From contig JAUPVA010000051.1 in assembly GCA_030917245.1 (NCBI GenBank), positions 1 to 13,300 of the forward strand: a DNA stretch of 13,300 nucleotides, written 5' to 3'. The notes beneath the pieces are model-generated. The model saw only the letters and a program-made list of their open reading frames with translations. It did no database searches and was not told where the DNA came from. Shown piece by piece: positions 1,505 through 13,300 of this stretch. The translations under genes were made by a program, and so were the position numbers. The first letter of the stretch is position 1. Every line of letters starts with the position of its first letter. The DNA is from Patescibacteria group bacterium (GTDB taxonomy: Bacteria > Patescibacteriota > Saccharimonadia > Saccharimonadales > Saccharimonadaceae).

Positions 1505-1512
1505 GGGATTTC

Positions 1513-1521
1513 ATTATAGCA
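1513..1521 (-). promoter_or_regulatory. pyrG extended -10 promoter, near-leaderless
   Basis: On the minus strand this reads TGC-TATAAT, a perfect -10 with the extended TGn motif, which removes the need for a -35; none is evident. Only 8 nt separate it from the pyrG ATG, so transcription would start within about two bases of the start codon. The inference is from sequence spacing alone. Confidence 0.6.
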
Positions 1522-1559
1522 ATATTTTTGAAACTTACGCTATGGGTGGAGTGTTGTTA

Positions 1560-1576
1560 TTTAGTCCTACACTAAA
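1560..1576. repeat. Small inverted repeat between pyrG and the DUF3592-like gene
   Basis: TTTAGT and ACTAAA flank a 5-nt spacer in the 128-nt divergent intergenic region. It could be an operator for either promoter. A perfect 6-bp arm in AT-rich DNA is not rare, so confidence is low. Nothing else recognisable lies in this gap apart from the two promoters. Confidence 0.25.
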
Positions 1577-1615
1577 CACGCACTATGTTGTACATAATGC
1601 ATCGCTACTAAGACA

Positions 1616-1624
1616 TGCTACTAT
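1616..1624 (+). promoter_or_regulatory. Candidate extended -10 for the 1633-2753 pair
   Basis: TGC-TACTAT (4/6 to TATAAT, with the TGn extension) ends 8 nt before the ATG at 1633. There is no Shine-Dalgarno sequence in the interval. The geometry is the same as at the divergent pyrG promoter, which supports a near-leaderless start, but the hexamer itself is weak and TATTTA at 1622-1627 is an alternative. Confidence 0.4.
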
Positions 1625-1632
1625 TTATACAT

Positions 1633-2295
1633 ATGGATCAAACACCAAAACCTATTAATCCCACCTTGCATACAGCCACTCGATCGGGTGCAAAGGTAAT
1701 CCGCCTTATTCTTACAATTGTCGGAACTGTTAATGCAGGCTTCTTCTTACTCATCGGACTGGCATTTGCTGGATTTTCTTATGGCTCATTAGCTTATTCC
1801 GCAGAAACGCAGGCCACCGTGACGTCAATCACGGAGTCTACGACAGACGAGGATGGAACCCGTTACTGTACGGTTAATTACACGTTTTCAGCGACAGGCA
1901 AACAATATACTGGCCATACCACCGTAGGCACTACCGATGCCTGTTCTCAGCAAATTGGTAGCATCATAGGAATCAAGTACGACCCTAAAAACCCAACAAA
2001 AAATTCCGATGATAATTCCGGCACATTCCTTTTCGGCATTACTATGGCGGGTATTGGAGCAGTAATCGCTGTTGCGGTGATTCTAGGTAACGTCCTGGCT
2101 TCGATGGCCGCAAAGCGTGACGACATTAATAACGATGGCCTGTTTAACGACAGGATGCCTGCTACTGAGGCCCAGCTAAATGTGATTCAGAGTGGCATGC
2201 GGGACCTTGGTGAATTTTGGGTACCGCGTAAAATGACCCAACAAGAAGCTCGCGATGTGATTCGTGACATTACTAATCGATTAGCAAACAAATAA
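1633..2295 (+). CDS. Two-TM DUF3592-like membrane protein
   Basis: 220 aa, function unknown. A hydrophobic segment at about residues 19-45 is followed by an extracytoplasmic beta-rich domain of DUF3592 type: QATVTSITES, then YCTVNYTFSATGKQY, then IGIKYDPKNPTKNS, the Y-D-x-x-NP ending being typical. A second membrane segment lies at about 135-165. Two cysteines, in RYCTV and DACSQ, could form a disulphide outside the cell. The cytosolic C-terminal tail (MPATEAQLNVIQSGM through ITNRLANK) resembles the short DUF3072 helical module, which is tentative. The start at 1633 is preferred over the in-frame ATG at 1615, because 1615 would place the candidate -10 inside the coding sequence. rnhA follows after 23 nt, probably on the same transcript. 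Confidence 0.72.
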   Translation: MDQTPKPINPTLHTATRSGAKVIRLILTIVGTVNAGFFLLIGLAFAGFSYGSLAYSAETQATVTSITESTTDEDGTRYCTVNYTFSATGKQYTGHTTVGTTDACSQQIGSIIGIKYDPKNPTKNSDDNSGTFLFGITMAGIGAVIAVAVILGNVLASMAAKRDDINNDGLFNDRMPATEAQLNVIQSGMRDLGEFWVPRKMTQQEARDVIRDITNRLANK

Positions 2296-2318
2296 CAATA
2301 GAATCAGTAAGGATACGT

Positions 2319-2753
2319 ATGTCTAATTCCCCTATTTATTACACCGATGGTTCAGCTAGCCCTAACCCTGGTCCAGGTGGCTATGCCGTCATTTTGAATG
2401 GCAAACCCGTTGCCTTAGGAACAGAGCCGAGTGGCGAACACACAACCAATATTCGCATGGAAGGCTTCGCTATCGTGGCTGCGCTTAAACATGCCAAAGG
2501 TGGTGAATGCGCCATTCATACAGACAGTGAGTTTTGGATTAACGTCATTACAAAATGGTCGCTTGCCTGGGAAGCTAATGGCTGGAAAAAGAAAGGTGGC
2601 GAGATTAAAAACCTCGACATCGTACAAGAAGTCTGCCCCCTCTATCGCTCATCAAAAGCCATGCTTGTGTGGGTGCGTGGACACAACGGCGATGAAGGCA
2701 ATGAACTCGCCGACGTTTGGGCCAACAAGGCCCGTGAAGGCGCACGGATTTAA
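2319..2753 (+). CDS. rnhA: Ribonuclease HI
   Basis: Degrades the RNA strand of RNA-DNA hybrids (R-loops, primers) in the cytosol. 144 aa, normal for the family. The four carboxylates are visible: Asp10 in YTDGSASPNPGPGG, Glu48 in RMEGFAIVAAL, Asp69 in HTDSEF and Asp132 in NELADVWAN. His122 in VRGHNG matches the flexible catalytic loop, and the basic helix around WEANGWKKKG fits the substrate handle. AAGGA lies 5 nt before the ATG, so this second gene of the pair uses a normal ribosome binding site. Its TAA overlaps the stop of the convergent CHASE gene (shared bases 2750-2753), leaving no room for a terminator. Confidence 0.96.
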   Translation: MSNSPIYYTDGSASPNPGPGGYAVILNGKPVALGTEPSGEHTTNIRMEGFAIVAALKHAKGGECAIHTDSEFWINVITKWSLAWEANGWKKKGGEIKNLDIVQEVCPLYRSSKAMLVWVRGHNGDEGNELADVWANKAREGARI

Positions 2754-3745
2754 CGACCCCGCTTGAAGTCGCGCGCTTCGCGCATCGCAGTTCGTAATAA
2801 TGCCATGGCCAAAATTACGCCGGCCGATAAAATAATGACAGGAGCAACGTAACTGTTGTCGCTTCGCGGCTCCGTATCGGCCACTTCAAGTAGCCAGGAA
2901 CGGTCGCCGATTCGAAGCTGCTTGTTATGCACGTTCGCAACCTCCGGCCATTGCTCTACCGAACTCCAGACTGGGTCTTTTAAGCCATCGGTAACATCGG
3001 TCACCCGGTAAATCATGCCTTCGTCCGAACCAGCCAGCACGGCTGGCATCATTTCTTCAATTCGGAACGATAACAAAATATAGCTTTTCGTTACCCCATT
3101 AACGGAGTTTGGTAACAACACAAAGAACCCCCTATGCCCCGTAGCTAGTTCTAGCGACGAACTGGCTACTGCACTCCCCGCTCGTACGGCTCGTTCGTAG
3201 AGCTCACGCCGGTCTGGATTAGCTAATAAGTCGCTACCTATTACCGCGCTAATGTCGTTCTGAGCGGCATACGAACTAATAAATCCATGATCCTTGCCAT
3301 TTCGCTCTACTTTAAGACGGAATGAAGGTCCAAAAAAATCGGATGTACGCATGCGTTGCTCAAAAGCATCAAGCTCGGAATCAGAGACCAGCTCCACGTA
3401 CGATACCGAACTTAATCCTGGGTATCGCCGAAATGTATCTTGGGCAGCAAAATAATTACGCCAATCCGCCTGAGTTACTGTGTCGCTGCTTACTTGGTAG
3501 GCTTTTGCTGCATACAATAAATTAGTGTAGTTGTTCAATACCTCTGTTGCACGGTCAGCCGACCCGTGTGCTCTATCGTTAAACGATTGCACGACGACCT
3601 GAGATGATTGCCGATAAACATCGTAACTAATCGCTCCTGCGGTTGCCAGCACCGCAATCGGCACTATAATTTCGGCAACACCAAGTTTCAAACGCCCAAA
3701 GGCAGATTGCTTCTTAGGTTTTTTTGTCGTACGTTTTGCGCTCAT
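2750..3745 (-). CDS. Membrane-anchored CHASE-domain protein, no output domain
   Basis: 331 aa from ATG 3745; an upstream ATG at 3784 would lie over the -35 element, so the inner start is preferred. A basic N-terminus (AKRTTKKPKK) leads into a TM helix at about 22-42. The extracellular part carries a CHASE sensor: AHGSADRATEVLNNYTNLLYA, then FRRYPGLSSVSYVELV (105-120), then a region with GHRGFFVLLPNS. A second TM at about 298-318 is followed by a 13-residue basic tail. CHASE normally senses small ligands for histidine kinases or cyclases, but here the chain stops after the second TM. It may signal through a partner, bind a ligand, or be a degraded receptor. The downstream neighbour rnhA is convergent and unrelated. 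Confidence 0.82.
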   Translation of the reverse strand: MSAKRTTKKPKKQSAFGRLKLGVAEIIVPIAVLATAGAISYDVYRQSSQVVVQSFNDRAHGSADRATEVLNNYTNLLYAAKAYQVSSDTVTQADWRNYFAAQDTFRRYPGLSSVSYVELVSDSELDAFEQRMRTSDFFGPSFRLKVERNGKDHGFISSYAAQNDISAVIGSDLLANPDRRELYERAVRAGSAVASSSLELATGHRGFFVLLPNSVNGVTKSYILLSFRIEEMMPAVLAGSDEGMIYRVTDVTDGLKDPVWSSVEQWPEVANVHNKQLRIGDRSWLLEVADTEPRSDNSYVAPVIILSAGVILAMALLRTAMREARDFKRGR

Positions 3746-3755
3746 GCTTAGCTGT

Positions 3756-3784
3756 ACTATAAGGCATCCGATATGGCTCAGCAA
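3756..3784 (-). promoter_or_regulatory. Promoter of the CHASE gene
   Basis: On the minus strand TTGCTG (3784-3779), 17 nt, then TATAGT (3761-3756). The -10 ends 10 nt before the ATG at 3745, giving a leader of about 4 nt with no Shine-Dalgarno sequence. The rest of the 80-nt gap to zupT holds only a weak 5-bp hairpin (TTACT/AGTAA) without a T run. Confidence 0.5.
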
Positions 3785-3825
3785 CTTTACCCCTTGTTAC
3801 TTATACGAGTAAAGCATTAAGCAAA

Positions 3826-4626
3826 CTACTGCAGCATCGATATACTGCCAGCAAGAACTGCCATGCCAGCGATAAATCCATAGGTCGTTTGCCGTTGCTT
3901 TGTTTCAAAGCGATGCGCAGCAGGCAAAATTTCGTTTACGCAAATGAACACCATCATACCTGCCACTACGCCAAACACCCAACCGAACAAGGTTTCGTTT
4001 AAAAACTCTCGAAGTAGCAAGAATCCCATTACCGCACCCACTGGTTCGGCAATGCCCGTGGCGGTTGCGATAGCAATGGACCTATATCTTTGCTTGGTAG
4101 CAGCATAAAGCGGTCCGGCAATAGCAATGCCTTCAGGAATGTTATGGATTGCCAGTGCTACAGCGATGGCAATACCCACACTTGGATCGTCATATGCCGT
4201 CATAAAAACCAAAAAACCTTCAGGGAAATTATGCAGACATAACGCGAGACCAATAAATAATCCGCCACGCATCAACTTGCGCTTCAAGTCGGCGTTAGAG
4301 TCGCTCGTTCCCTCTTGGTCATCGAGGTTAATTTCAGATGGAATTAGTCGATCAGCGATTACCATTAGACCCACGCCCAGAAAAAATGCTAATGCCATCA
4401 TGCCGTAACTTAACCTGGGATCACTATATAGTTCAGCGAATGAGTCTTCGCTCTTGTTAAGAATGTCCGTTAGCGATACATATAATATTGCGCCTGCAGA
4501 AAAGCCTAACGAAATCGCCATAGCCGAACGTGACGTGAATCGCTTGAGCGTTGCAAACACTGCCCCAATCATTGTGGCGATACCGGCCAAAAATGTTAGC
4601 GACAATGCAAACCAAAATGCGTCCAT
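3826..4626 (-). CDS. zupT: ZIP-family metal transporter, ZupT-like
   Basis: Imports divalent metals (zinc, with iron or manganese likely by family) across the cytoplasmic membrane. 266 aa, the usual size, with about eight hydrophobic segments. The two signature helices are intact: HNFPEG (132-137) and HNIPEG (161-166), whose His, Asn and Glu line the metal site. A cytosolic loop at about 97-117, rich in Asp and Glu, lies between TM3 and TM4, where ZIP proteins often carry a metal-sensing loop. Its ATG shares one base with the stop of the upstream CYTH gene (TAATG), implying translational coupling. No Zur- or Fur-like operator was seen. The metal could matter to the Mn/Fe-type reductase encoded upstream, but that is inference. 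Confidence 0.92.
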   Translation of the reverse strand: MDAFWFALSLTFLAGIATMIGAVFATLKRFTSRSAMAISLGFSAGAILYVSLTDILNKSEDSFAELYSDPRLSYGMMALAFFLGVGLMVIADRLIPSEINLDDQEGTSDSNADLKRKLMRGGLFIGLALCLHNFPEGFLVFMTAYDDPSVGIAIAVALAIHNIPEGIAIAGPLYAATKQRYRSIAIATATGIAEPVGAVMGFLLLREFLNETLFGWVFGVVAGMMVFICVNEILPAAHRFETKQRQTTYGFIAGMAVLAGSISMLQ

Positions 4627-5213
4627 TACACCTGGGCTCCAAACTCGGCGGGTAACGGAGCATCGAATCGAACTTCTTTGACATCAATTACGCCACGTAC
4701 TGTCATATTGGGGTATTTCTCTTTATAGAAGTTATCCACCGAACCTAAGTTTGTCGTGCTCCACTCAACATCGAGTTTGTCGGCGACTGCGCGCAAGGTT
4801 ACCTCGTCGTCTGCCTCGATTTCAATATAAGGGTTTATCCACGGCCACTCGTCAATGACAACTTCAGCGTCGTCTAACGTCCAGGTCTCACGACGAGATT
4901 CTTGGAACGTGGTGTAGTGCCAGCCAGCTGCAGAGAACAGCTCGACTGTCTTGTCGAAATCGCTGACCACGACCTCTACCTCTTTCTGGCCATGAATCGT
5001 CTCTGCTTCGCGTCGTTTATAGGTTAGCGTTACCTTATCACCTTCGTCGCGTATTCGTACGAATGAATTCTCATTTGCGTGATGAGGCTCTTCAATGAGC
5101 GCACGCTTCATCAAGCGCATTGGATGGATACATGTCGCATCAACGGCGATTAGCTTGGCGCGTATTTCTTCGATACTTGCGATACGAAACTTTGCTTCGA
5201 TTTCTGTCTGCAT
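4626..5213 (-). CDS. CYTH-domain protein (triphosphate-tunnel enzyme)
   Basis: 195 aa, cytosolic. The N-terminal signature ExExK is at residues 4-8 (TEIEAKF), followed by the tunnel strands of a CYTH fold: FVRIRDEGDKVTLTYKRRE, QKEVEVVVSD, and later VVIDEWPWINPYIEIE, all rich in charged residues pointing inward. CYTH enzymes bind triphosphates with a divalent metal; members include class IV adenylate cyclase, thiamine triphosphatase and inorganic triphosphatase. Which activity applies cannot be read here. The first-gene ATG is only 3 nt after the stop of the 30-aa microprotein, and it is coupled to the ZIP transporter downstream, so the three are very likely one transcript. Confidence 0.88.
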   Translation of the reverse strand: MQTEIEAKFRIASIEEIRAKLIAVDATCIHPMRLMKRALIEEPHHANENSFVRIRDEGDKVTLTYKRREAETIHGQKEVEVVVSDFDKTVELFSAAGWHYTTFQESRRETWTLDDAEVVIDEWPWINPYIEIEADDEVTLRAVADKLDVEWSTTNLGSVDNFYKEKYPNMTVRGVIDVKEVRFDAPLPAEFGAQV

Positions 5214-5216
5214 CTT

Positions 5217-5309
5217 TTAGCGTCCGGCCTCGATTGAGAAGATGAGTGAATAGATAATTGCGAGTCCGATGATGAATGAAGAGGTTTGAATCGTTGTCTT
5301 TACGTCCAT
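5217..5309 (-). CDS. 30-aa single-TM microprotein
   Basis: Too short for most gene callers. It begins MDVKTTIQTS, has one hydrophobic helix (SFIIGLAIIYSLIFSI, residues 11-26) and ends EAGR. TAAAGGA lies 5 nt before the ATG, a good ribosome binding site. The stop is 3 nt before the CYTH start, so the frame, the Shine-Dalgarno sequence and the spacing all support translation. Function unknown. Position suggests a small partner of the ZIP transporter or a coupling leader for the CYTH gene. Confidence 0.62.
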   Translation of the reverse strand: MDVKTTIQTSSFIIGLAIIYSLIFSIEAGR

Positions 5310-5333
5310 GAAAATCCTTTAATTTTTGAGCCG

Positions 5334-5370
5334 AAAAAGGTGCGGGTTAGCTTTGAACCATTCCCGCACC
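5334..5370 (-). terminator. Intrinsic terminator after nrdB
   Basis: On the minus strand GGTGCGGG (5370-5363) pairs with CCCGCACC (5346-5339) around a 16-nt loop, followed at once by TTTTT. It lies 32 nt past the nrdB stop. The next ribosome binding site begins only 13 nt beyond, with no clear promoter between, so the microprotein-CYTH-zupT cluster probably depends on read-through or on a promoter inside the end of nrdB. Confidence 0.8.
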
Positions 5371-5401
5371 CTAATCGTTTTAAATTACTTATGCGCGCGT
5401 G

Positions 5402-6490
5402 TTACTTGTCGCCGTTTTCAGCGGCTTCTTGTACATGCGGATCTTCTGGTACGTTCTCGCCACGATCTGCGCTCGGACTTTGTCCGACTTCAGGACCCAT
5501 GCCAGTACTAGACTTACCGGAGTTCACTTCGTAGCTCGTGTTCGTACTTTCAAAGAAGTTCACCAACTCAAGCGTATCATTGGCAGCCGCCATCCACTTC
5601 GCAGGGTTTGACACTTTGTAGTGTGGCTCGAAACCAAGCTCTTCTAGACGGCGGTCTGTCAGGTACTTAACGTACTGATTTACGTACTCAGCATTCAAGC
5701 CAAGAATACCCTTTGGAAGCAGGTCACGGTTGTACTGCTCTTCCATTTCTACGGCATCGAGAATCATTTGTTTGATTTCTTCAGCGAATTCTTCCGTCTG
5801 AAGGTCTTCGTTCTCCTCAAGTGTGGTGAGAATCAGATTGATTCCAAATTTGAGGTGCAGACTTTCGTCGCGAATAATCCAATCCATAAGTGAACCAAAG
5901 TTACGCATAAGGTTTCGCTGACGGAACGACAACGCAACCATGAATCCAGAGTAGAACCAAATCCCTTCAAGAATAATGTTGTAGGCAATCAGGTTCTTAA
6001 CAAAGTCTTTTTTACCCTCAGTTGTCGTAATATCGAGCGTGTCTTCAGTCATCCGCTTGATGTACTTCGTTTCGAATTCTTCCTTAGCTTTCATGCTCGG
6101 GACTTCAACGTGGTTGTTGTATGCCGCGTCACGATCTATTGGGAACGTTTCGAGCACATATTCAAAGCTCATGCAGTGATTAGCCTCTTCCCACATTTGC
6201 TTTGCGAGGTACAAGTGACACTCAGCAGCATTCACATATGGATATACACCAAACGCCAATGCCTTATTGACCAATAACTCATTCGGGTTGAAATAACTCA
6301 TGAGGTACGTCAGCGCATGCTTCTCCTCATCGGTCATTTTCTTCCAGTCGCTTAGGTCCTGACCCAGTTGAATTTCATTTGGGAACCAAGTATTCGCAAC
6401 GGCCTGGTCATATAGGTCCATCGCCCATTGATAATGCACTGGCTTCAGAAGCAAACCATCCTGAATGCCGGTGCCTAAAATTCCTGCCAT
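5402..6490 (-). CDS. nrdB: Ribonucleotide reductase beta subunit, class Ic (Phe in place of radical Tyr)
   Basis: Generates the oxidant that NrdA uses to reduce ribonucleotides to deoxyribonucleotides. 362 aa, ferritin-like helical fold. Metal ligands are Glu71, Glu102, His105, Glu175, Glu209 and His212. The residue at the usual radical tyrosine is Phe109 (HCMSF). From memory of the C. trachomatis enzyme (E89, E120, H123, F127, E193, E227, H230, Y338), every position here is shifted by exactly 18, including Tyr320 of the transfer route. An Mn/Fe cofactor is therefore the best inference. The C. trachomatis Tyr222 position is Trp204. After Tyr320 comes a 42-residue tail rich in Asp, Glu, Gly and Ser, longer than in that enzyme. 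AAGGAGGT lies 6 nt before the ATG. Confidence 0.96.
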   Translation of the reverse strand: MAGILGTGIQDGLLLKPVHYQWAMDLYDQAVANTWFPNEIQLGQDLSDWKKMTDEEKHALTYLMSYFNPNELLVNKALAFGVYPYVNAAECHLYLAKQMWEEANHCMSFEYVLETFPIDRDAAYNNHVEVPSMKAKEEFETKYIKRMTEDTLDITTTEGKKDFVKNLIAYNIILEGIWFYSGFMVALSFRQRNLMRNFGSLMDWIIRDESLHLKFGINLILTTLEENEDLQTEEFAEEIKQMILDAVEMEEQYNRDLLPKGILGLNAEYVNQYVKYLTDRRLEELGFEPHYKVSNPAKWMAAANDTLELVNFFESTNTSYEVNSGKSSTGMGPEVGQSPSADRGENVPEDPHVQEAAENGDK

Positions 6491-6496
6491 AGCTTT

Positions 6497-6522
6497 ACCT
6501 CCTTATTCTCTTATCTATTATA
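6497..6522 (-). promoter_or_regulatory. Internal promoter (-10) and strong RBS for nrdB
   Basis: TATAAT at 6522-6517 is a perfect -10; the -35 about 17 nt upstream is poor (GAGACG). AAGGAGGT at 6504-6497 is a full Shine-Dalgarno sequence. A promoter here would let beta be made independently of nrdA and the tiny ORFs, with a leader of about 20 nt. Confidence 0.45.
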
Positions 6523-6527
6523 CGCGC

Positions 6528-6629
6528 TTAGACGTCGACCGTCTCACCCAGAGCAACGATAGCTAAGGGGAGATCGAGATGATGCATGACTGCTTCATCG
6601 ACTTCTGGGATGCTCAGTTGTTCGCCCAC
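6528..6629 (-). CDS. 33-aa ORF with GTG start, between the CEGCQ ORF and nrdB
   Basis: Function unknown. The GTG shares its first base with the TAG of the 57-aa ORF (TAGTG), and the frame stays open for 33 codons, filling most of the gap to nrdB. The peptide begins MGEQLSIPEVDEAVMHHLD and ends LPLAIVALGETVDV; it is acidic with a hydrophobic C-terminal half and could form a short helix and strand. Support is the stop-start overlap, an AAGG about 9 nt before the GTG, and coding-like composition. Against it are the rare start codon, small size, and the -10 of the next promoter just beyond. It may be a real subunit, a coupling ORF or chance. Confidence 0.4.
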   Translation of the reverse strand: MGEQLSIPEVDEAVMHHLDLPLAIVALGETVDV

Positions 6630-6802
6630 TATTGGCAGCCTTCACACATCGTCAGGTCACCTGGGTCGAGTGGTGCAGCAACTTGTCCGCGCGATGCGGC
6701 TTCGTCGTTAGCGACGGCTTGTGCGTTTGCCATTGCCTGGTCAATTGCAGCCAGTTTTTCTTCGAGAGACATTTCGTCGTTAATGATTTGTGATGCGTTC
6801 AT
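6629..6802 (-). CDS. 57-aa protein ending CEGCQ, resembling a detached NrdA redox tail
   Basis: Start chosen at 6802: AAGGGGAA lies 5 nt upstream, close to the AGGGGAA of nrdA itself; the longer frame from 6859 has none and overlaps the 13-aa ORF. Residues 10-35 form an alanine-rich helix (MSLEEKLAAIDQAMANAQAV); a flexible Gly/Pro stretch follows, and the chain ends DLTMCEGCQ with Cys53 and Cys56. Many class I NrdA proteins end in a very similar CEACQ-type sequence whose cysteines re-reduce the active site. NrdA here lacks such a tail, so this may be the tail as a separate protein, docking through the helix. That role is inferred; the coding call is good. Confidence 0.75.
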   Translation of the reverse strand: MNASQIINDEMSLEEKLAAIDQAMANAQAVANDEAASRGQVAAPLDPGDLTMCEGCQ

Positions 6803-6849
6803 GATAGTTCCCCTTATACCCTTTTTTCGATTGATGTTACGTGTTCGTG

Positions 6850-6891
6850 TTAGCAGCAAGCGCAGCTACAAGTGCATGTCGTGTCTGTCAT
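6850..6891 (-). CDS. 13-aa cysteine-rich peptide coupled to nrdA
   Basis: Encodes MTDTTCTCSCACC, five cysteines in the last eight residues. Its ATG overlaps the nrdA stop (ATGA), and GGAGGA inside the last nrdA codons sits 5 nt upstream, so reinitiation should be efficient. Alternatively the same frame, which is -1 relative to nrdA and open back through AAA-AAG 8 codons before the stop, could be entered by frameshifting, giving NrdA a cysteine-rich tail. Possible roles are thiol donor for NrdA, metal binding, or a coupling leader. No homologue is recalled. Confidence 0.6.
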   Translation of the reverse strand: MTDTTCTCSCACC

Positions 6892-9311
6892 ACGCTTCCT
6901 CCTACTGATTGCTTTTTGGCGAATCCGAAGCCTGTCTTACGAGCGCCACCGCTTGATTTAGCCAGTTCTTCAGTTTTATTCACACGGGTAGTTGATTGTT
7001 CGGCTTGGTGACGTGGTTTTACGTGCAGGTAGTACGTCGTCTTAAGCCCGCGTTTCCACGCTTCGGTGTAGATTTCGACGTAGTCGTCGATGTTGCGTGT
7101 TTCAAGGTACATATTTCGGCTAATAGCTTGGTCTACCCATTTTTGTGCGCGAGCCGCCACTTCAATGAAGGCATAAGGGCTAAGCTGGAAGCTTGTCTTA
7201 TACACATCCTTAAGGTGTTGCGGTACAGCATCGATTGTCTGAATGTCACCTTGCTTGGCAAGCAGTTCGTCTTTGACTTCGTCCCAGATACCCAGGTTCT
7301 TTAAGTCGCGAACAAGGTTAGTGTTCACTTCGAGAAACTTACCATTAAGCGTGCTTCGAGAGAAAATCTGTGCAAACTGCGGGTCAAGACCAGGGGTGGT
7401 GCCGGCAATGTGAGCAATGTTTGCCGTTGGGGCAATTGCCATCAGCGTAGCATTTCGCATACCCTTCTTAACTTTTTTGCGAAGTTTGTCCCAGTCTAGC
7501 TTGTGCTTTCGATTAACTTTAACTTTAACCTTGCGGTCGGCTTCGAGTTCTTCAATCGTGTCGATTGGCAACACACCTTTGCTCCAGCCGCTACCCTTAA
7601 AGGTATCGTATGCACCACGAGTCTGCGCCATATCAGCCGACTCATCAATCGCGTGATAGCTTACAAATTCAACCAGCTGGTCAATGAGTGCGTACGCCTC
7701 CTCGCTTTCATAGCTATGGCTGAGCTTTTCGATTACATCGGTAAAGCCCATAACTCCTAACCCTAAGGCGCGGTTCTTCAAGTTCGAGTTCATCGCTTCG
7801 GGAATCGGAGTATTTGTAATGTCACACAAGTTGTCAAGCTGACGCACCGCGCTGCGGGTTGAAGCAGCTAGGCGGTCCCAATCCCAAGTTTTATCTTCTT
7901 TGAGGTGAGCCGACAAGTTAATTGAAACGAGATTACAAACTGCAGTGTTATCAGCATCTTGCGGCAGCGTAATTTCAGTGCACAGGTTACTGAGGTGAAT
8001 CGTGCTGGTGTTGTTATTCAGGGCGCGGACATTAATAGTGTCCTTCCATGTCAGCCAAGGGTGACTCGTTGCCTGCAAGACGGTAAGAATCTGGCGGAAT
8101 TGCTGCAGGGCAGGAATTTTTGTAAAGTCGCGCATCTTACCGGCTTCAGCCATTTTGACGTATTCAGCATAGCGAGCTGAGAACTCTGCACCGTAGAGTT
8201 CCGGTAGGTCTTCTACCTCAGCTGGGTCAAAAAGATACCAGTCTTGGTTCTTTTGTACCCGCTTCATAAATTCATCTGAAATAAAGACGGCAGTGTTAGC
8301 TAAACGCGTCCGAAGGTATGGGTCGCCTGAATTCTGCTTAAGATCAAGGAACTGTGGGAAGTTAAGGTGCCAGTTTTCCATGTAAATGGCTGCTGCACCT
8401 GCCTTCTTGCCTTTTCGTGAAACAGCAAACAATGCTGTATCAATCATCTTCATGAACGGAATAGGACCAGTCGACTCAGTATTCGTCGTCTTAACAGGAG
8501 AACCAGCTGCACGAAGCTTGTTTAGTGAGATTCCAATGCCGCCCGTACCTTTCGCAATCCACATAACGTCACGTATACCTTTAGCGATCGACTCCATGTC
8601 ATCCTGGACTTCCAATAGAAAGCAGTTCGAAAGCTGAGGAAAAGAGCCGCCGGCGTTTACACGAGTTGAGCCGCCCGGTACGTAATCAAGGTTACTCATG
8701 TGTTTATAGAAGTCGATTGCTGCTTCGGTTGGGTTTTCTTCGTTAAAGCTCAGGCCCATTGCAATACGCATGTGGGTAAACTGTGGAACCTCGATTGGAG
8801 CACCAGATTGCTTGCGAAGTGCATAACGGTTCTTGTTTGTCACAACTCCCAGATACTTACTCAATCCGTCACGCGATGGATCCAGCGCCTTGGCAAGTTT
8901 TTTAATATCAAATATGTTCGAGTCAGCCATGCGAGTATCAAGCAGACCCTCTTTTACGCCAAACTTAATGTATTCGGCAAACTTCTTTTCGTGGAGAGTT
9001 TTTAACTCCGCATCGCTTTCGTAGTCACCTAAAATATTCTTATAAATATTCTTTAGGAGTAACCGAGCGGCAATCGTGTCGAAATCCGGGTCGTCCTTAA
9101 CGTTCTGAAGTGCTGTATGAATTACCGCTTCATCTAGTTGCTCACTAGTGATGCCGTCAAATAATGTCAGTTGAAGTTCGGTTGCAACCTGAACTACTTT
9201 TGAAATCTGGTCTGGCAGACCTTCAGTTGCCTTCACTAAGGCGAGGTTGATCTTGTTGGCGTCGAATGGTTCGCGGGTGCCATCACGCTTTACCACATGG
9301 ATTCCGTTCAC
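6888..9311 (-). CDS. nrdA: Ribonucleotide reductase alpha subunit, class I, lacking C-terminal cysteines
   Basis: Reduces ribonucleoside diphosphates to deoxy forms with NrdB. 807 aa, usual length. An ATP-cone (about 3-95, VVKRDGTREPFDANKINLAL) gives dATP control. The ten-stranded barrel has Cys230 (LSNCFL), Asn442-Cys444-Glu446 (NLCTE) and Cys459 (VCNLVSINLS), matching E. coli C225, N437, C439, E441 and C462. Tyr760-Tyr761 (TTYYL) complete the radical route. The 46 residues after that tyrosine pair, rich in Lys, Gly and Ser, hold no cysteine, unlike normal class I tails. The GTG start has AGGGGAA about 5 nt upstream; the in-frame ATG-like positions inside would cut the ATP-cone. Heads the operon with three tiny ORFs and nrdB. 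Confidence 0.97.
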   Translation of the reverse strand: MNGIHVVKRDGTREPFDANKINLALVKATEGLPDQISKVVQVATELQLTLFDGITSEQLDEAVIHTALQNVKDDPDFDTIAARLLLKNIYKNILGDYESDAELKTLHEKKFAEYIKFGVKEGLLDTRMADSNIFDIKKLAKALDPSRDGLSKYLGVVTNKNRYALRKQSGAPIEVPQFTHMRIAMGLSFNEENPTEAAIDFYKHMSNLDYVPGGSTRVNAGGSFPQLSNCFLLEVQDDMESIAKGIRDVMWIAKGTGGIGISLNKLRAAGSPVKTTNTESTGPIPFMKMIDTALFAVSRKGKKAGAAAIYMENWHLNFPQFLDLKQNSGDPYLRTRLANTAVFISDEFMKRVQKNQDWYLFDPAEVEDLPELYGAEFSARYAEYVKMAEAGKMRDFTKIPALQQFRQILTVLQATSHPWLTWKDTINVRALNNNTSTIHLSNLCTEITLPQDADNTAVCNLVSINLSAHLKEDKTWDWDRLAASTRSAVRQLDNLCDITNTPIPEAMNSNLKNRALGLGVMGFTDVIEKLSHSYESEEAYALIDQLVEFVSYHAIDESADMAQTRGAYDTFKGSGWSKGVLPIDTIEELEADRKVKVKVNRKHKLDWDKLRKKVKKGMRNATLMAIAPTANIAHIAGTTPGLDPQFAQIFSRSTLNGKFLEVNTNLVRDLKNLGIWDEVKDELLAKQGDIQTIDAVPQHLKDVYKTSFQLSPYAFIEVAARAQKWVDQAISRNMYLETRNIDDYVEIYTEAWKRGLKTTYYLHVKPRHQAEQSTTRVNKTEELAKSSGGARKTGFGFAKKQSVGGSV

Positions 9312-9351
9312 GTTGTTCCCCTATTAGGTTTGGTTTATGTTCGTTACACAG

Positions 9352-9367
9352 CTCGCCTCCCTGCGAG
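9352..9367 (-). promoter_or_regulatory. Hairpin in the nrdA leader
   Basis: On the minus strand CTCGC-AGGGAG-GCGAG, a 5-bp GC-rich stem with a 6-nt loop, about 40 nt upstream of the nrdA GTG. It lies in a leader of about 160 nt if transcription starts near 9472. It could affect translation or RNA stability; no known riboswitch is recognised. The 9312-9626 interval holds no gene, only this, the promoter and three palindromes. Confidence 0.35.
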
Positions 9368-9452
9368 AAGAATACGCAAAAAGCAACCCAACCCTATTGA
9401 GGGCTATTCATGCAGTAGTGGTGCCTTGCGTTACTGTGTATTTTATTGAACG

Positions 9453-9466
9453 ACTACATATGTAGT
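9453..9466. promoter_or_regulatory. Palindrome just downstream of the nrdA transcription start
   Basis: ACTACATATGTAGT is a perfect 14-bp palindrome, centred 34 bp from the NrdR-like box in the promoter spacer and located at about +6 to +19. Its ACTA..TAGT arms resemble an NrdR box but are 2 bp too far apart. It may be a second operator half-site cluster. Confidence 0.4.
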
Positions 9467-9478
9467 GGTCTGCGAACA

Positions 9479-9528
9479 ACTATAGACCCTATATATGGCC
9501 TACGCAAGCGTTTTTTTACCGTTTTTTT
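9479..9528 (-). promoter_or_regulatory. nrdA operon promoter with A-tract UP-like element
   Basis: On the minus strand TTGCGT (9507-9502), 17-nt spacer, TATAGT (9484-9479). Two runs of seven A (9528-9522 and 9517-9511), in phase 11 bp apart, lie directly upstream of the -35, like an UP element or a bent-DNA activator. Start of transcription would be near 9472. Confidence 0.6.
9486..9501. promoter_or_regulatory. NrdR-box-like site in the nrdA promoter spacer
   Basis: ACCCTATATATGGCCT matches 12 of 16 positions of an ACACTATATATAGTGT-type NrdR box and fills the 17-nt spacer of the nrdA promoter, an ideal place for repression when dATP/ATP levels are high. No nrdR gene is in the window. Confidence 0.5.
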
Positions 9529-9591
9529 AACCACAAGCCTTATCGGTTGAATTCACCTCTAGTACTTGATACCTAGTGTAGTGTTTGTTAT

Positions 9592-9617
9592 TTACAACGC
9601 TATATATAGCGTTGTAA
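9592..9617. promoter_or_regulatory. 26-bp perfect palindrome with NrdR-box core
   Basis: Each arm is TTACAACGCTATA. The central 16 bp (ACGCTATATATAGCGT) match an ACACTATATATAGTGT-type NrdR box at 14 of 16 positions. It lies 9 nt beyond the stop of the 133-aa gene, upstream of nrdA. There is no T run on either side, so it is not an intrinsic terminator. TTACAA and TAAATA flank its core at 17 bp on the minus strand, possibly a weak upstream promoter. Confidence 0.55.
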
Positions 9618-9626
9618 CGGCTACTT

Positions 9627-10028
9627 TTATTTAGCAGCCGGAGTAGCGGCTTTTTCAATAATTTCAGGGGTGGTAGTGCCAGGTCGCTTGGAAAGCTTAT
9701 CCCCAATTGACACTAACTCGTAGAATCCGCTCGATACTGACCAATTAAAAGTCTCGCCGCCTTCTGGCCGTACCGTAATTGAGTACGAATGAGTTACCGC
9801 CACATCGGAACGATTATTTCCGAATGAGATTAACGAAACCCCACCGCCGTCGTTTGATTGTCGGTTGTTCAAGTCTCTATCGACATGTTCTTGCATAGCC
9901 TTATCTATAACTACCCCAGTCCAGCTCGCGTCTTTTCGTTTTTTGTTCTGGTACAAACTAAGGCCAATTATCACTATAAAAACCGCAGCTATTCCACCAA
10001 TGATTAATATGTCTTGAATGTTATTCAT
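9627..10028 (-). CDS. 133-aa single-TM anchored protein, unknown function
   Basis: Starts MNNIQDILIIGG, with a TM helix at about 6-26, then a basic stop (QNKKRKD) and a beta-rich domain: WTGVVIDKAMQEHVD, then THSYSITVRPEGGETFNWSVSSGFYELVSIGDKLSKRPGTT split over 90-125. The W-x-G-V-V-x-D-K opening and the GD-K-x-PGT close suggest a compact all-beta domain of a family I cannot name with certainty. A longer frame reaching 10247 would overlap the upstream gene by 180 nt; the short start is chosen because a -10 (TATACT) lies exactly 6 nt before it. Behind the spermidine-synthase-like gene by 37 nt; may be cotranscribed and also have its own promoter. Confidence 0.72.
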   Translation of the reverse strand: MNNIQDILIIGGIAAVFIVIIGLSLYQNKKRKDASWTGVVIDKAMQEHVDRDLNNRQSNDGGGVSLISFGNNRSDVAVTHSYSITVRPEGGETFNWSVSSGFYELVSIGDKLSKRPGTTTPEIIEKAATPAAK

Positions 10029-10034
10029 ACAAGC

Positions 10035-10040
10035 AGTATA
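10035..10040 (-). promoter_or_regulatory. -10 of a leaderless promoter for the 133-aa gene
   Basis: TATACT (10040-10035) is followed by 6 nt and then the ATG, placing the start codon at +1. There is no Shine-Dalgarno sequence and no good -35. Supported by the same exact geometry at two other genes in this window. Confidence 0.5.
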
Positions 10041-10065
10041 CCGTACATGCTTCTTGCGTTCCCTA

Positions 10066-11511
10066 TTAAGCAGTCTGCTGACACGCGTGGTACAAACGTT
10101 CCGATGGAGCGAAGTTATCGGTATACGGTGCGACTCCAAATGATGGCAAAAATTGCAATCCTGACAATTTAATCGGCTGCTTACTATAAACAACGACTTG
10201 ATTAGCTCGTTGCTCACGCCTGCCCGACTCGTTTGAGTACTGCACATATGGTAAAGATGATCGGTATGCGGTATCTACGGCCGCAAAAGCCTCACGACAT
10301 GGGCCCGTGAAGCCACCAATCACATTTGCAATCACTACACCGTCAGGATTAAGAATCTTATTAAGAGCCTCCCCATACTCCTTAGTTATGAACGAAAATG
10401 GGATGGCAGTGTCTCCATACACGTCTACAATAATGGCGTCATACCGCCGATCAGTCGAATTGACATAGGCGCGGGCATCGGTAAATATCTCCTGAACATT
10501 TGAGGGATTTCGATACCCAAAATATTTCTCCGAAATTGGTTTAAGACTAGGGTCAATCTCCACGGCGTCAATCTGGGCATCAGGAAGCTGAGTGCTGAGA
10601 TACTGCGGAAGCGTAAAGGCGCCACCCCCTAAAATCAAGACGGTACCTGGCTGACGTATGCCTGTAAGGCGACTAATTTCGTTGGTATACCAAAATACTA
10701 AATCTGTCCGCCCGTTCGTATACACAGCAGACTGCGTTCCGTTAGGCCCTGTAACTAAGCCGGTCACTGGTTGGTTATTAATGTACCCACTTATAACACG
10801 ATAGTGCGAGCTGGCAGTGTCGATTCGCACCAACCCTTCCACGGCTGAAGGCGGCGTTAGTGCAAATAGCAATACGGCGAGTGACAAGATAAGTCGTCGG
10901 GGCCACTGCCAGGATGGCAGTATCAGCCAGCTTGCGAGTAGCAGCAACACAGCTACCAGTCCGATAGCTTGGTGCGCACCGATATATCCAAAAAGGATAA
11001 AGCCCGTCACGAAAGTACCGCTAATCCCCCCGACCGCGTTGAACATATCTAACGAAGCAATACTTTGTCCTGTTGAACGAAGCGATATAACATTCAGCTT
11101 AGCTAAATACGGGCTTGTCATGCCGATAAAAAAGCTCGCAGGTGCAAAAAGTGTGAGCGCGGCCGCAATGGCCTGCACCCTACTATCAGCAAAAGCATCC
11201 ACGATTGTGTCGAGCATACTCTCATATATAAGGAGTGTTCCTATTGTCGTCATTGCTGCTATAACAAGAAGCAACACAAGGTCACTTATAGCGTTTCGTG
11301 AATCGGCAACCTTACCGCCAACAAAAAATCCTAGGCTTAAAGCGGCAATAATAACCCCAATAACTCCTGTCCAAACATAGGTAGAGCTACCGATACTAGG
11401 AGCTAACACTCGGGCAGCCGCCAGCTCGTACGTCAATAGCGAAAAACCGGTGATGAACGAAATAATCTCCAAACGGTGCCGTCGAGCAAACGTACTGAAG
11501 CGACTTTGCAT
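10066..11511 (-). CDS. Membrane-fused spermidine-synthase-like protein
   Basis: 481 aa. Residues 12-220 hold about seven hydrophobic segments of the type fused to spermidine synthases, including SFITGFSLLTYELAAARVLAP and GMTSPYLAKL. Residues 230-470 form a SAM-fold aminopropyltransferase/methyltransferase-like domain: LILGGGAF (293-299), AVEIDP (316-321), TDARAYV (344-350) and DAIIVDVYGD (358-367). The acidic Asp of motif DAIIVDVYGD matches the catalytic region, but activity on putrescine is not established and such fusions are often of unknown function. The ATG directly follows the TAG of the nucleotidyltransferase gene with no gap, so translation is probably coupled. The 3' end is followed 37 nt later by the 133-aa gene. 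Confidence 0.85.
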   Translation of the reverse strand: MQSRFSTFARRHRLEIISFITGFSLLTYELAAARVLAPSIGSSTYVWTGVIGVIIAALSLGFFVGGKVADSRNAISDLVLLLVIAAMTTIGTLLIYESMLDTIVDAFADSRVQAIAAALTLFAPASFFIGMTSPYLAKLNVISLRSTGQSIASLDMFNAVGGISGTFVTGFILFGYIGAHQAIGLVAVLLLLASWLILPSWQWPRRLILSLAVLLFALTPPSAVEGLVRIDTASSHYRVISGYINNQPVTGLVTGPNGTQSAVYTNGRTDLVFWYTNEISRLTGIRQPGTVLILGGGAFTLPQYLSTQLPDAQIDAVEIDPSLKPISEKYFGYRNPSNVQEIFTDARAYVNSTDRRYDAIIVDVYGDTAIPFSFITKEYGEALNKILNPDGVVIANVIGGFTGPCREAFAAVDTAYRSSLPYVQYSNESGRREQRANQVVVYSKQPIKLSGLQFLPSFGVAPYTDNFAPSERLYHACQQTA

Positions 11512-11961
11512 CTAGCCCTCGTGGCCGAGCGCTTCGTTGATACGGGTAGAAGAGTCAGGTTTCACCAACCCTCTTACCCCTGTACCGACGCCGAATATCA
11601 GCTCTATGCCATACTTTTTGCACACCTCAGTTTCAGGAATCTCTCGTTCGCCGTGGCGGTCGCCCCCGTTCGCGAATATTAATTCCTCGCCGTGGTACTG
11701 CTTTGCAAGGAACTCGAGCGTTTGAATCACTGGAGGATCATTATCAATCGACAAAACGACCTCATCGACATCCCTCAGCGCTCGGATTAGTCGGACTCGA
11801 TTGTCCTCGTCTAAGATAATTTTTCCTTTTTTCAAAATCTGTTGCTGGTCATTGTTCACTATCACCACTAGGCGGTCGCCCAACTTTGACGCAGCTTCAA
11901 TCATATCTAAGTGCCCACCATGGAGTGGATTAAAGTATCCGCTGATAATTACGACTTTCAT
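11512..11961 (-). CDS. Cytidylyltransferase-like nucleotidyltransferase
   Basis: 149 aa, cytosolic. The nucleotide-binding HxGH motif is at His14-His17 (GYFNPLHGGHLDMI), and the ribose/metal end motif SSTRIN lies near the C-terminus. A FANGGDR segment matches the family's GGDR. These enzymes transfer NMP to a phosphorylated small molecule: glycerol-3-phosphate cytidylyltransferase, RfaE2-like, FMN or pantetheine adenylyltransferases. CoaD itself has a different terminal motif, so I do not assign a substrate. AAGGA lies 5 nt before the ATG. It follows a 10-aa leader ORF that overlaps its start and is directly joined to the spermidine-synthase-like gene. Confidence 0.86.
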   Translation of the reverse strand: MKVVIISGYFNPLHGGHLDMIEAASKLGDRLVVIVNNDQQQILKKGKIILDEDNRVRLIRALRDVDEVVLSIDNDPPVIQTLEFLAKQYHGEELIFANGGDRHGEREIPETEVCKKYGIELIFGVGTGVRGLVKPDSSTRINEALGHEG

Positions 11962-11990
11962 ATGTTTCCTTTTTTACATTCAATACTCAT
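11958..11990 (-). CDS. Leader peptide MSIECKKGNI
   Basis: A 10-codon ORF whose stop overlaps the nucleotidyltransferase ATG (ATGA). Its own ATG lies exactly 6 nt after a -10 (TAGAAT), so it would be the leaderless first ORF of the transcript. The AAGGA used by the next gene is inside it. It could deliver ribosomes to the downstream start. Very short, so coding is unproven. Confidence 0.45.
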   Translation of the reverse strand: MSIECKKGNI

Positions 11991-11996
11991 GGCACG

Positions 11997-12026
11997 ATTC
12001 TACGCCCGCGCTCGAACCCATTTTAA
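11997..12026 (-). promoter_or_regulatory. Promoter of the leader-nucleotidyltransferase operon
   Basis: On the minus strand TTAAAA (12026-12021), 18-nt spacer, TAGAAT (12002-11997). The -10 ends 6 nt before the leader ATG. The GC-rich spacer (12003-12020) is unusual in this genome but does not disrupt the match. Confidence 0.45.
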
Positions 12027-12057
12027 CGCAAAAGTCTGACCTGTGCGCCCGCGCCTG

Positions 12058-12144
12058 CCCGAAACACCCCCACCTTCCCATTTTTTTAAATTTCCCTCGC
12101 CGAGATCTCCCAAAGAAGTTGCAAGAGGCGTGGGGGCTTTCGGG
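12058..12144. ncRNA. Candidate structured RNA element in the fic-nucleotidyltransferase gap
   Basis: CCCGAAA-CA-CCCCCAC (12058-12073) is complementary to GTGGGGG-C-TTTCGGG (12130-12144), 14 bp with a small internal loop, enclosing 56 nt. Inside, CCTCGC (about 12095-12100) can pair with GCAAGAGG (12121-12128), and GAGATCTC is self-complementary. It is not a match to tRNA, SRP RNA (no tetraloop motif) or tmRNA. It may be a small RNA, a 6S-like RNA or a cis element. The strand is not determined; on the minus strand a weak promoter-like TTGTTT/TACAAC lies upstream. No T run follows either side, so it is not a simple terminator. Confidence 0.4.
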
Positions 12145-12188
12145 ACGAAATTTTGTTGTATGCTTCAGAATTCTATCGAAACAAACAT

Positions 12189-12740
12189 CTAACCTTTATA
12201 GTCATCGGGCTCTTCGTAGTAATACGATTGCTTAATGCCTTTCATAAACACTTCGCGGTCACTGATTTTGTCAGTGAGTGCACCGCGTAGAAGTTCGCGA
12301 AGTTCAAGATCATTTACCGGACTACGCTCCATGGCGTTAAAATAATCATTCTTGTCAATTTTCTGCCAATCTACACATTGCTTGAGACTCTTTTTTAAGA
12401 TTAAATCTAGCCAGATTCGGGTGCTACGACCGTTGCCCTCCATAAACGGGTGCGCGATATTCATCTCGACATATTTCCTGACAATTTCTTCAAAGGTTGT
12501 TTCGGGTAGTTTTTCTACTTCAGATAATGCGCCTTCGAGATAAATAGCTGAAGCAAACGTAAATCCGCCCTTACTTATGTTTTTTGAACGAATCTTCCCA
12601 GCAAAGTCATAGAGCCCGCCAAACAAATATTCATGAATCTGTTGCAAACCCTTAGTTGTACCAACTTCAAATGATGAAAGTTCAATACTATCGAACAGCT
12701 TTACGGCTCGTTGTTTACTGATTTCATCGATGTTTTGCAT
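12189..12740 (-). CDS. fic: Fic AMP-transferase, class III-like
   Basis: 183 aa from ATG 12740; the longer frame from 12800 is rejected because the N-terminus [18 protein letters not shown] aligns with the start of Neisseria meningitidis Fic and the -10 would otherwise be coding. The catalytic motif [12 protein letters not shown] (97-108) is canonical (HxFx(D/E)GNGRxxR), so it should transfer AMP from ATP to target hydroxyls. The N-terminal [24 protein letters not shown] region covers the flap. The C-terminal SYYYEE (172-177) matches the class III inhibitory helix (S/T)xxxE(G/N) except that the last residue is Glu, not Gly/Asn. NmFic targets gyrase/topoisomerase IV; the target here is unknown. 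No antitoxin partner is adjacent. The C-terminal region is not truncated. Confidence 0.9.
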
Positions 12741-12746
12741 GTACTT

Positions 12747-12775
12747 ATTATATCTTTTATCTCTTGAAAGTTCCA
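12747..12775 (-). promoter_or_regulatory. Leaderless promoter of fic
   Basis: TATAAT (12752-12747) is followed by exactly 6 nt and the ATG at 12740, so the start codon would be the first base of the mRNA. The -35 position reads TGGAAC (12775-12770), a partial match. No Shine-Dalgarno sequence. The 12801-12929 stretch upstream holds no recognised gene and is T/C-rich near its right end. Confidence 0.6.
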
Positions 12776-12929
12776 CGAATAGAGGGGTATTTATCAGCAT
12801 GTTTTATTTTAACTAAACTTATACACCGACACCCAAGCTATCACTATTTATTAGTTCTCGCTATGTGCATTTTCTAGCCCCTGTTATTTCATTTTCTCGT
12901 TTTATCTTTTTTCTGTCTTTTCTCCTCTC

Positions 12930-13112
12930 TTTTTATATAAATATAGAGAAGAAGATATGATGTGAGTGATGAGTAGTTATGGATAAGTTTGTAAGTGTAG
13001 ATGTAGTGAGTAGTAGAGTTGGTTATGCTGGTGATGTTTTGAGTGATTTGGTTTGTAGATTGAGTGTTGGTGTAGTGAATATTGGTAATGAGATATGAGT
13101 GAAGTGAGGTAT
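12930..13112 (+). other. C-depleted, G/T-rich strand-biased tract
   Basis: 183 nt contain a single C (13028) on the plus strand, while G is about 36% in the core. It is preceded by a T/C-rich tract at about 12886-12935. Such composition precludes G-C pairing in a transcript of this strand. It includes the 39-aa ORF and the start of the replication-relaxation-like gene. Function unknown; see findings. Confidence 0.85.
12979..13098 (+). CDS. 39-aa ORF inside the C-depleted tract
   Basis: Begins MDKFVSVDVVSSRVGYAGD and ends LSVGVVNIGNEI; rich in Val, Ser and Gly, with a single Cys. Codons avoid C almost wholly (GTA, AGT, GGT, TTG). It ends in ATGA, sharing bases with the next gene's ATG (13095). 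In DNA of this composition stop codons should occur about once in ten codons, so 39 open codons are suggestive but not decisive. No convincing Shine-Dalgarno sequence. May be real, coupled to the downstream gene, or an artefact of composition. Confidence 0.4.
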   Translation: MDKFVSVDVVSSRVGYAGDVLSDLVCRLSVGVVNIGNEI

Positions 13113-13300
13113 CGGAGACCATTAAATAAACAGCAGTTAGGTGTGATGTACCGACTGTATTGGTTTCGCTTCTGTACGAGAAAACTGCTAGCTCGCTCGT
13201 TAGAGCGATCTAGTCCGAAAGCAATTCAAAACAAGCTCCAGATTCTTGAAGAAGAACAGTTCATAGGTAAACGATACGAAAAAAGTTTCGAATTGGCGGA
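13095..13300 (+). CDS. Replication-relaxation-like winged-helix protein, N-terminal part
   Basis: 68 codons visible, cut by the right edge. The sequence begins MSEVRYRRPLNKQQLGVMYR, followed by RFCTRKLLARSLERSSPKAIQNKL, then QILEEEQFIGKRYEKSFELA. The pattern of a helix, a turn, a long basic helix and a strand with an L-E-x-x-x-F-I-x-K-R motif is that of the winged-helix N-terminus in the replication-relaxation family (PF13814), which is frequent in mobile and conjugative elements of Saccharibacteria. The frame is bounded upstream by TGA at 13089-13091. The ribosome binding site is weak, so coupling to the 39-aa ORF (ATGA) is likely. The domain call rests on recollection of the pattern. Confidence 0.6.
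   Translation, partial: MSEVRYRRPLNKQQLGVMYRLYWFRFCTRKLLARSLERSSPKAIQNKLQILEEEQFIGKRYEKSFELA

Follow-up and report, generated by a model that had tools for sequence, protein, structure and literature searches.

The window analysed here, a stretch of 13,300 nucleotides (nt) from a Patescibacteria group bacterium (assembly GCA_030917245.1, contig JAUPVA010000051.1, positions 1 to 13,300), encodes a class I ribonucleotide reductase in which the thiol-exchange tail very probably forms a subunit of its own, a protein of 57 amino acids (aa) acting in trans on the catalytic subunit NrdA. Most class I NrdA proteins are described as having a CXXC consensus at their end (PMC9669993), and a 2018 paper states, in the part cited here, that all class I reductases bear a redox-active cysteine pair in this position; through this pair the disulfide of the active site is reduced, and thioredoxin, glutaredoxin or NrdH then recharges the pair (PMC6187632). 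The first-pass annotation of the window had proposed that this tail is detached and works in trans, or else recruits a thioredoxin directly; comparative genomics lends strong support to its being a separate protein, and from this we infer the action in trans. The genome from which the window comes comprises 679,689 bases in 97 contigs and is 77.8% complete, and where related records bear a name, it is in many cases Candidatus Saccharibacteria.

Assignment to class I follows from an NrdA barrel with three catalytic cysteines and an nrdB gene alongside (PF00268). NrdA matches PF02867 (1.1e-162) and the ATP-cone (9e-19) in Pfam, and its best NCBIfam model is NF005101 (1331.5 bits against a cut-off of 988), whereas the model for the B12-dependent, NrdJ-type catalytic subunit of class II, NrdJ_Z, scores 366.3 bits and thus falls below its cut-off of 399.95. 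An alignment of four NrdA proteins confirmed the earlier observation that C230, C444 and C459 are kept and that no cysteine follows Tyr761; of the four cysteines in the window protein (the fourth is C496) these three are common to all the aligned sequences, and we take them to be the catalytic cysteines of the class I barrel. The tyrosine pair 760/761 is followed by 46 cysteine-free residues, and NF005101, a model of 822 positions, is spanned at positions 3-791 only. The cysteine pair expected at the C-terminus of a class I NrdA is absent from the window protein and, as detailed below, from the relatives of the same type.

Two tiny open reading frames (ORFs) directly downstream of nrdA had been suggested to supply the missing cysteines. 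Both exist, but only the 57-aa ORF corresponds to the tail, the 13-aa ORF being a separate element. A homologue search of the 57-aa protein in a set of 5.8 billion proteins gave 560 matches at E<=10; all of the best 120 (to 1.4e-20) end in CxxC plus one residue, none of these has a Pfam domain, and any name given to them is 'hypothetical protein'. When 63 of the 81 tail gene copies, those with a length of 57 codons, were compared, the proportion of nonsynonymous differences (pN) equalled or exceeded that of synonymous differences (pS) in none of the 1953 pairs, and the median ratio of nonsynonymous to synonymous rates (dN/dS) was 0.20 (169 pairs with pS 0.05-0.6). Because so many homologues end in CxxC and pN>=pS occurs in no pair, the 57-aa ORF is, judged by its conservation, a real protein and not a chance reading frame. 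Positions invariant across 16 members include K16, L17, A43, P44, D46, P47, C53 and C56. Neither Pfam nor NCBIfam gave a match at cut-off, whether for the window protein, for 16 members searched against Pfam or for nine further members searched against NCBIfam, and as far as family models can tell there is no thioredoxin, glutaredoxin or NrdH match (Pfam, 16 members; NCBIfam, the window protein and nine others). With 57 aa and two cysteines, the tail is also unlike NrdJb, a protein of about 229 aa with a cysteine-rich zinc-finger domain. A second, shorter free-tail-like ORF containing MEQTLTGGDMTLEQKLQAITEALRRLDGDNTNDLICEGCE was seen within the same stretch at one related locus (L089 +2721, G292).

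The nearest unsplit relatives examined are NF005101-type NrdA proteins from other Patescibacteria (L153-L156), which extend beyond the region where the window NrdA stops and end in ACPIDPQERLQCDSCQ, VCPVDPQLRLQCDSCQ, ACPVDPQERLNCESCQ and ACPVDPQERAQCDSCQ. The window tail ends in APLDPGDLTMCEGCQ, and a detached tail of the f38 type has an intermediate form, ACPIDPAERALCDSCQ. Over the last ~15 residues the tail resembles the fused tails of related NrdA, with which it shares the end motif (C/A)P(I/V)DPxxxxxC(D/E)xCQ and, presumably, its role; the ordinary fused tail differs in being a covalent part of NrdA. The fused set leaves out the TGA-interrupted L152, and among ten NrdA matches without loci the ends were examined for G061 and G065 only.

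One sample of 294 genomes of the class served both for a search with the tail profile and for one with NrdA (E<=1e-40). NrdA was found in 75, namely 61 of the window type and 14 of a distant f35/f39 type (40-43% identity). No window-type NrdA has a terminal cysteine pair (0/61), and 60 have no cysteine at all after the tyrosine pair, the remaining one (G006) having a single cysteine directly after it in place of leucine. The small tail gene is present in all 61 window-type genomes (60 by profile, G241 by motif), and a tail match occurs in only one, G250, of the 219 genomes without a class I NrdA match at this threshold (Fisher p 2e-61, relatedness uncorrected). G250, in which the single class II match, of 35 bits, lies under the family cut-off, retains only a truncated relic, reading MGQIISNTMTLEEKLSAINQAIASLS up to its stop and closing ...MTLEEKLSAINQAIASLS, so that the cysteine end is gone. 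One member, L016, escaped the cysteine-end pattern search and was read separately. A second collection, obtained by scanning contigs with the tail profile and sharing genomes with the first sample, retained 80 loci, 76 of which have nrdA upstream on the same strand, and in all 76 NrdA is cysteine-free after YYL. The distance from nrdA to the tail is 3-2722 nt, under 200 nt in 55 loci and over this in 21.

The small protein might instead be some other partner of NrdA/NrdB, for example a metal chaperone, a redoxin adaptor or an inhibitor, with a CxxC end acquired by convergence; the lack of any family match at cut-off would agree with this, as would an N-terminal motif that has no counterpart in the 17 fused tails. 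However, we consider this unlikely, given that the likeness to fused tails covers the last ~15 residues, that the cysteine-free NrdA end and the tail gene coincide in every window-type genome, and that the cysteine end is precisely the part lost from the G250 relic.

The first-pass annotation had asked whether the small ORF is always adjacent when NrdA lacks terminal cysteines; the gene is always there in the window type, but its place is not fixed. The order is nrdA-tail-nrdB in 44 of the 61 genomes and nrdA-nrdB-tail in 16, the locus of G122 being cut by contig ends. In 10 of 15 mapped nrdA-nrdB-tail loci nrdB and the tail are separated by a gene of 131-140 aa, and all three of these tested match PNPOx_N; L172, L192, L196 and other such clusters have a PNPOx-like gene (PF01243) of 135 aa at this point, possibly a flavin link to the redox chain if its family assignment is a guide. 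The relic of G250 sits just before a gene which we take to be that of a CTP synthase (pyrG), and some nrdA-nrdB-tail clusters also have the tail at that CTP synthase-side position. At L237, one of the four loci of the second collection that fall outside the 76, the tail is at a contig edge and nrdB follows. An assembly artefact was rejected, as numerous genomes share the layout, among them CP011211.1 (L245), which is complete, and G006, which consists of one contig.

Detachment is not confined to the window type. Among the 14 f35/f39 genomes three have a fused tail (G084, G065 and G101) and 11 a cysteine-free NrdA; a free tail of 32-37 aa, reading (D/E)(D/E)WDKPMxCPIDPxELxECEACQ or near, was found in eight of the 11 and in one of the three. 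These f35 tails lie on contigs other than that of nrdA or, in G061, 66 kb away. Elsewhere in the phylum, G436 has a cysteine-free NrdA and, ~1 kb past its stop, a small ORF ending GDPNLNVCESCQ, whilst four fused f54 relatives bear the same end on NrdA itself (GDPNLNICESCQ). An NrdA tree of 41 proteins was built with the tail region removed and a midpoint root, viral NrdA not being included and three rows being dropped (L001, represented by the window NrdA; L026, class II; L292, cut by a contig end). All 16 window-type split NrdA form one clade (100/100) beside the fused L153, L154 and L156; G436 groups as sister (100/97) with three f54 rows that are fused, further fused rows surrounding them; and f35 (94/84, not starred) stands beside the fused f39, with the fused G084 well inside f35. 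Parsimony on this tree suggests at least three detachments and, within f35, either repeated loss of the fused tail or a single regain of it.

This scattering also bears on the idea that NrdA and the tail end up as one polypeptide, through frameshifting, read-through of the stop or ligation after translation, so that the working enzyme would be conventional. Some gaps are indeed short and in frame (3 nt in L203, 15 in L173, 18 in L169). However, 16 of 61 genomes have nrdB in between, the tails of three viral loci precede nrdA, and the tail possesses its own start codon, preceded by purine-rich stretches in the loci printed. We regard joining as very unlikely overall and rejected a frameshift or read-through product on account of gene order and the distant copies; in f35 it is excluded because the tails are on other contigs or 66 kb off.

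Tail genes are also carried by viruses. At the sensitivity used, IMG/VR yielded 23 contigs with a window-type tail and one with the f35 type, ~5-20 kb of each being covered; nrdA was absent from the stretches of these 24 contigs (tblastn, E<=1), and the sole nrdB alignment was poor (E 0.40). Four closely similar contigs (L257, L259, L260 and L261) have a glutaredoxin gene ~170-190 nt past the tail. As a control, the best 80 of 513 viral class I NrdA loci were considered, in which 75 of 79 closed NrdA ORFs have a cysteine pair near the end. The remaining four are L352, which is truncated and was excluded from the viral conclusion together with one unclosed ORF, and the cysteine-free L305, L306 and L311. 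The NrdA of the latter three is 62-63% identical to that of the window, and in each a small ORF ending CESCQ or CDSCQ lies upstream of nrdA (~90 nt to 1 kb); this strict motif matches one of 77 other viral loci, in an ORF that is not tail-like, and a looser CxxC-end motif matches 17 of the 77. Since the tails are alike, and in view of two phage-like stretches in cellular assemblies (L178 and L215, discussed below), we infer that the hosts of these viruses are Saccharibacteria. Directly upstream of nrdA, L305 (2018-2983) and L306 (2035-2982) also have a free-standing intein-like protein; that of L305 shows homology (BLASTP 1e-45) with an insert in the L311 NrdA (~448-761), located directly before the CTEI cysteine.

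The system is best explained as a three-gene class I enzyme in which NrdA retains the catalytic barrel and ends after the conserved GFGFAK stretch. The N-terminal segment of the tail (helix-like LEEKLAAI, or an acidic-Trp motif in a second lineage) probably docks on the reductase and is the likeliest dock; acidic-W or LEEKLxxI-type patterns occur in 80 of 80 free window-type tails and in none of 17 fused tails, counted with patterns written after the free tails had been seen. The patterns recur in 116 of 120 proteins, a count that is biased as these were picked by a profile containing such motifs. A variable linker would join this segment to the terminal CxxC, which is envisaged to enter the active site after each turnover, reduce a disulfide formed by the pairing of C230 with C459, and then be recharged by glutaredoxin or thioredoxin. 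In a redoxin search of eight genomes, six near-complete genomes with split NrdA each gave a glutaredoxin and/or thioredoxin match, and G092 (f35) a thioredoxin match. A universal docking motif in the above form was rejected, as the three viral tails that accompany a split NrdA lack it by eye. The WDKP segment of the f35 tail bears a weak resemblance to the end of the f35 NrdB, GTLDWE, which we mention as an idea only.

Several observations weigh against a detached tail acting in trans. The window genome, at 77.8% completeness, gave no thioredoxin or glutaredoxin match. An AlphaFold2 model of NrdA with the tail was poor (mean predicted local distance difference test score 53.2, predicted template modelling score 0.50) and holds no information on docking. 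Three f35 genomes with a cysteine-free NrdA (G074, G076 and G095; 93, 93 and 86% complete) gave no tail. L243, from an oral TM7 single-cell genome, has a tail and no nrd gene on its stretch, and L178 and L215 are extra tail copies on phage-like stretches without nrdA, L178 carrying terminase and portal genes (PHROGs) and L215 being phage-like by eye; the assemblies of both also contain a linked nrdA and tail (L188 and L206). The co-existence of a fused tail and the small ORF, which had been named in advance as evidence against detachment, occurs in none of the 61 window-lineage genomes and once in the distant f35, where G084 has a fused NrdA tail plus two standalone tails of the kind peculiar to f35; this may be an intermediate state. 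In L215 a chaperonin GroEL homologue (5246-6919) was seen just ahead of the tail gene.

Between nrdA and the tail, a cysteine-rich micro-ORF of 11-26 aa comparable to the 13-aa ORF of the window occurs in 13 of 56 short gaps, that of the window among them; none of 2800 shuffled gaps and two of 56 reverse strands contain one. In 10 of the 13 it overlaps the nrdA stop by ATGA. It was rejected as the redox tail, being present in just these 13; its product might be a peptide that binds metal, or a leader that senses cysteine. That thioredoxin, glutaredoxin or this peptide reduces the NrdA active site directly, the 57-aa protein being an accessory, is a view to which the micro-ORF, the three tail-less f35 genomes and the direct reduction of active sites by dithiothreitol in other reductases (reported in part of PMC4520616) lend something, but with the micro-ORF not found in 43 gaps and the 57-aa gene found in all 61 genomes we give it almost no weight.

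Coordinates of the features in the window and at related loci
Feature	Position	Strand	Remarks
nrdA, class I ribonucleotide reductase catalytic subunit, 807 aa	6888-9311	-	GTG start; ends ...RKTGFGFAKKQSVGGSV
Cys-rich micro-ORF, 13 aa, MTDTTCTCSCACC	6850-6891	-	start overlaps nrdA stop (ATGA), after GGAGG; comparable micro-ORFs at L171, L174, L175, L188, L189, L200, L210, L224, L228, L235, L239, L247
detached redox tail (putative), 57 aa	6629-6802	-	ends CEGCQ; helix-like motif MSLEEKLAAIDQAM, linker, terminal APLDPGDLTMCEGCQ
third small ORF, 33 aa	6528-6629	-	GTG start; without Cys; overlaps tail-gene stop
nrdB, class I radical-generating subunit, 362 aa	5402-6490	-	PF00268 5.2e-76; NF007186 401.4 bits against cut-off 237
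viral glutaredoxin gene	L257 10364-10591		Pfam confirmed on one of four contigs

Two further features of the window were noted. NrdB reads WEEANHCMSF, which by the E-x2-H-x3-Y pattern of the radical tyrosine would have phenylalanine at the tyrosine position, and for this reason the subunit perhaps has a class Ic-like metal cofactor. The 33-aa ORF, on which the first-pass annotation is silent, has full-length relatives, 55-58% identical, in two other genomes (L188/L025 and L011/L147); these relatives of 33-34 aa read MGEQLSIxEIDE... and also start on the tail-gene stop, and a Pfam search with the ORF gave no match. An Rfam search across the window likewise gave no match.

A literature search of open-licence papers in PMC found no description of a detached class I tail, or of a Saccharibacteria reductase of such a kind. 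The first-pass annotation had known of no described example; within the searches made this holds for class I, but there is a class II precedent, and a class I NrdA that is split elsewhere. In Pseudomonas aeruginosa the class II NrdJa/NrdJb has its redox cysteines on a separate subunit of 229 aa, and the cited part of PMC4520616 describes it as a unique case, among free-living organisms, of a reductase that is split; NrdJb is assigned thiol-disulfide exchange and is reported to be needed in vivo (PMC4520616), and is equated with the class II cysteine-rich domain in PMC5704485. As here, the catalytic and the cysteine-bearing redox parts are separate gene products in the accounts cited. However, NrdJab is described there as B12-dependent, with NrdJb equated with a cysteine-rich (zinc finger) domain and encoded in the same operon, whereas the present system is class I with NrdB, its free tails are of ~30-80 aa with one terminal CxxC, and they are sometimes away from nrdA or on viral contigs. 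In phage Aeh1 a class I NrdA likewise consists of two polypeptides (nrdA-a/nrdA-b) and is reported in the parts cited to be functional (PMC2988022, PMC3653736); there a single phage gene was interrupted by a homing endonuclease in a region critical to function, whilst here the redox tail alone has come off, on more than one occasion, both in cells and on viral contigs. Free redoxins (NrdH, glutaredoxin and thioredoxin) are also small separate CxxC proteins which serve the reductase; the tail differs in having no redoxin match, in being shorter and in having its CxxC at the extreme C-terminus.

We also put forward a bolder proposal, which could as well prove wrong as right. Viruses of Saccharibacteria would bring only the ~6-kDa tail, in some cases together with a glutaredoxin, and thereby equip the host NrdA/NrdB with a recharging module of viral origin, making the class I tail an exchangeable third subunit; in f35 the standalone tail would have come first, the covalent tail then being lost repeatedly, with G084 as a surviving intermediate.

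A large bacterial group appears to break the rule that all class I reductases bear their redox cysteines on NrdA, the cysteine pair sitting instead on an unannotated microprotein. If this is true, Saccharibacteria would offer a naturally bipartite system: the tail could be titrated, mutated or swapped with the catalytic subunit untouched, and the manner in which the tail locates the active site would become directly testable. It would also suggest that viruses manipulate the deoxyribonucleoside triphosphate supply of their hosts by means of a protein of ~57 residues.

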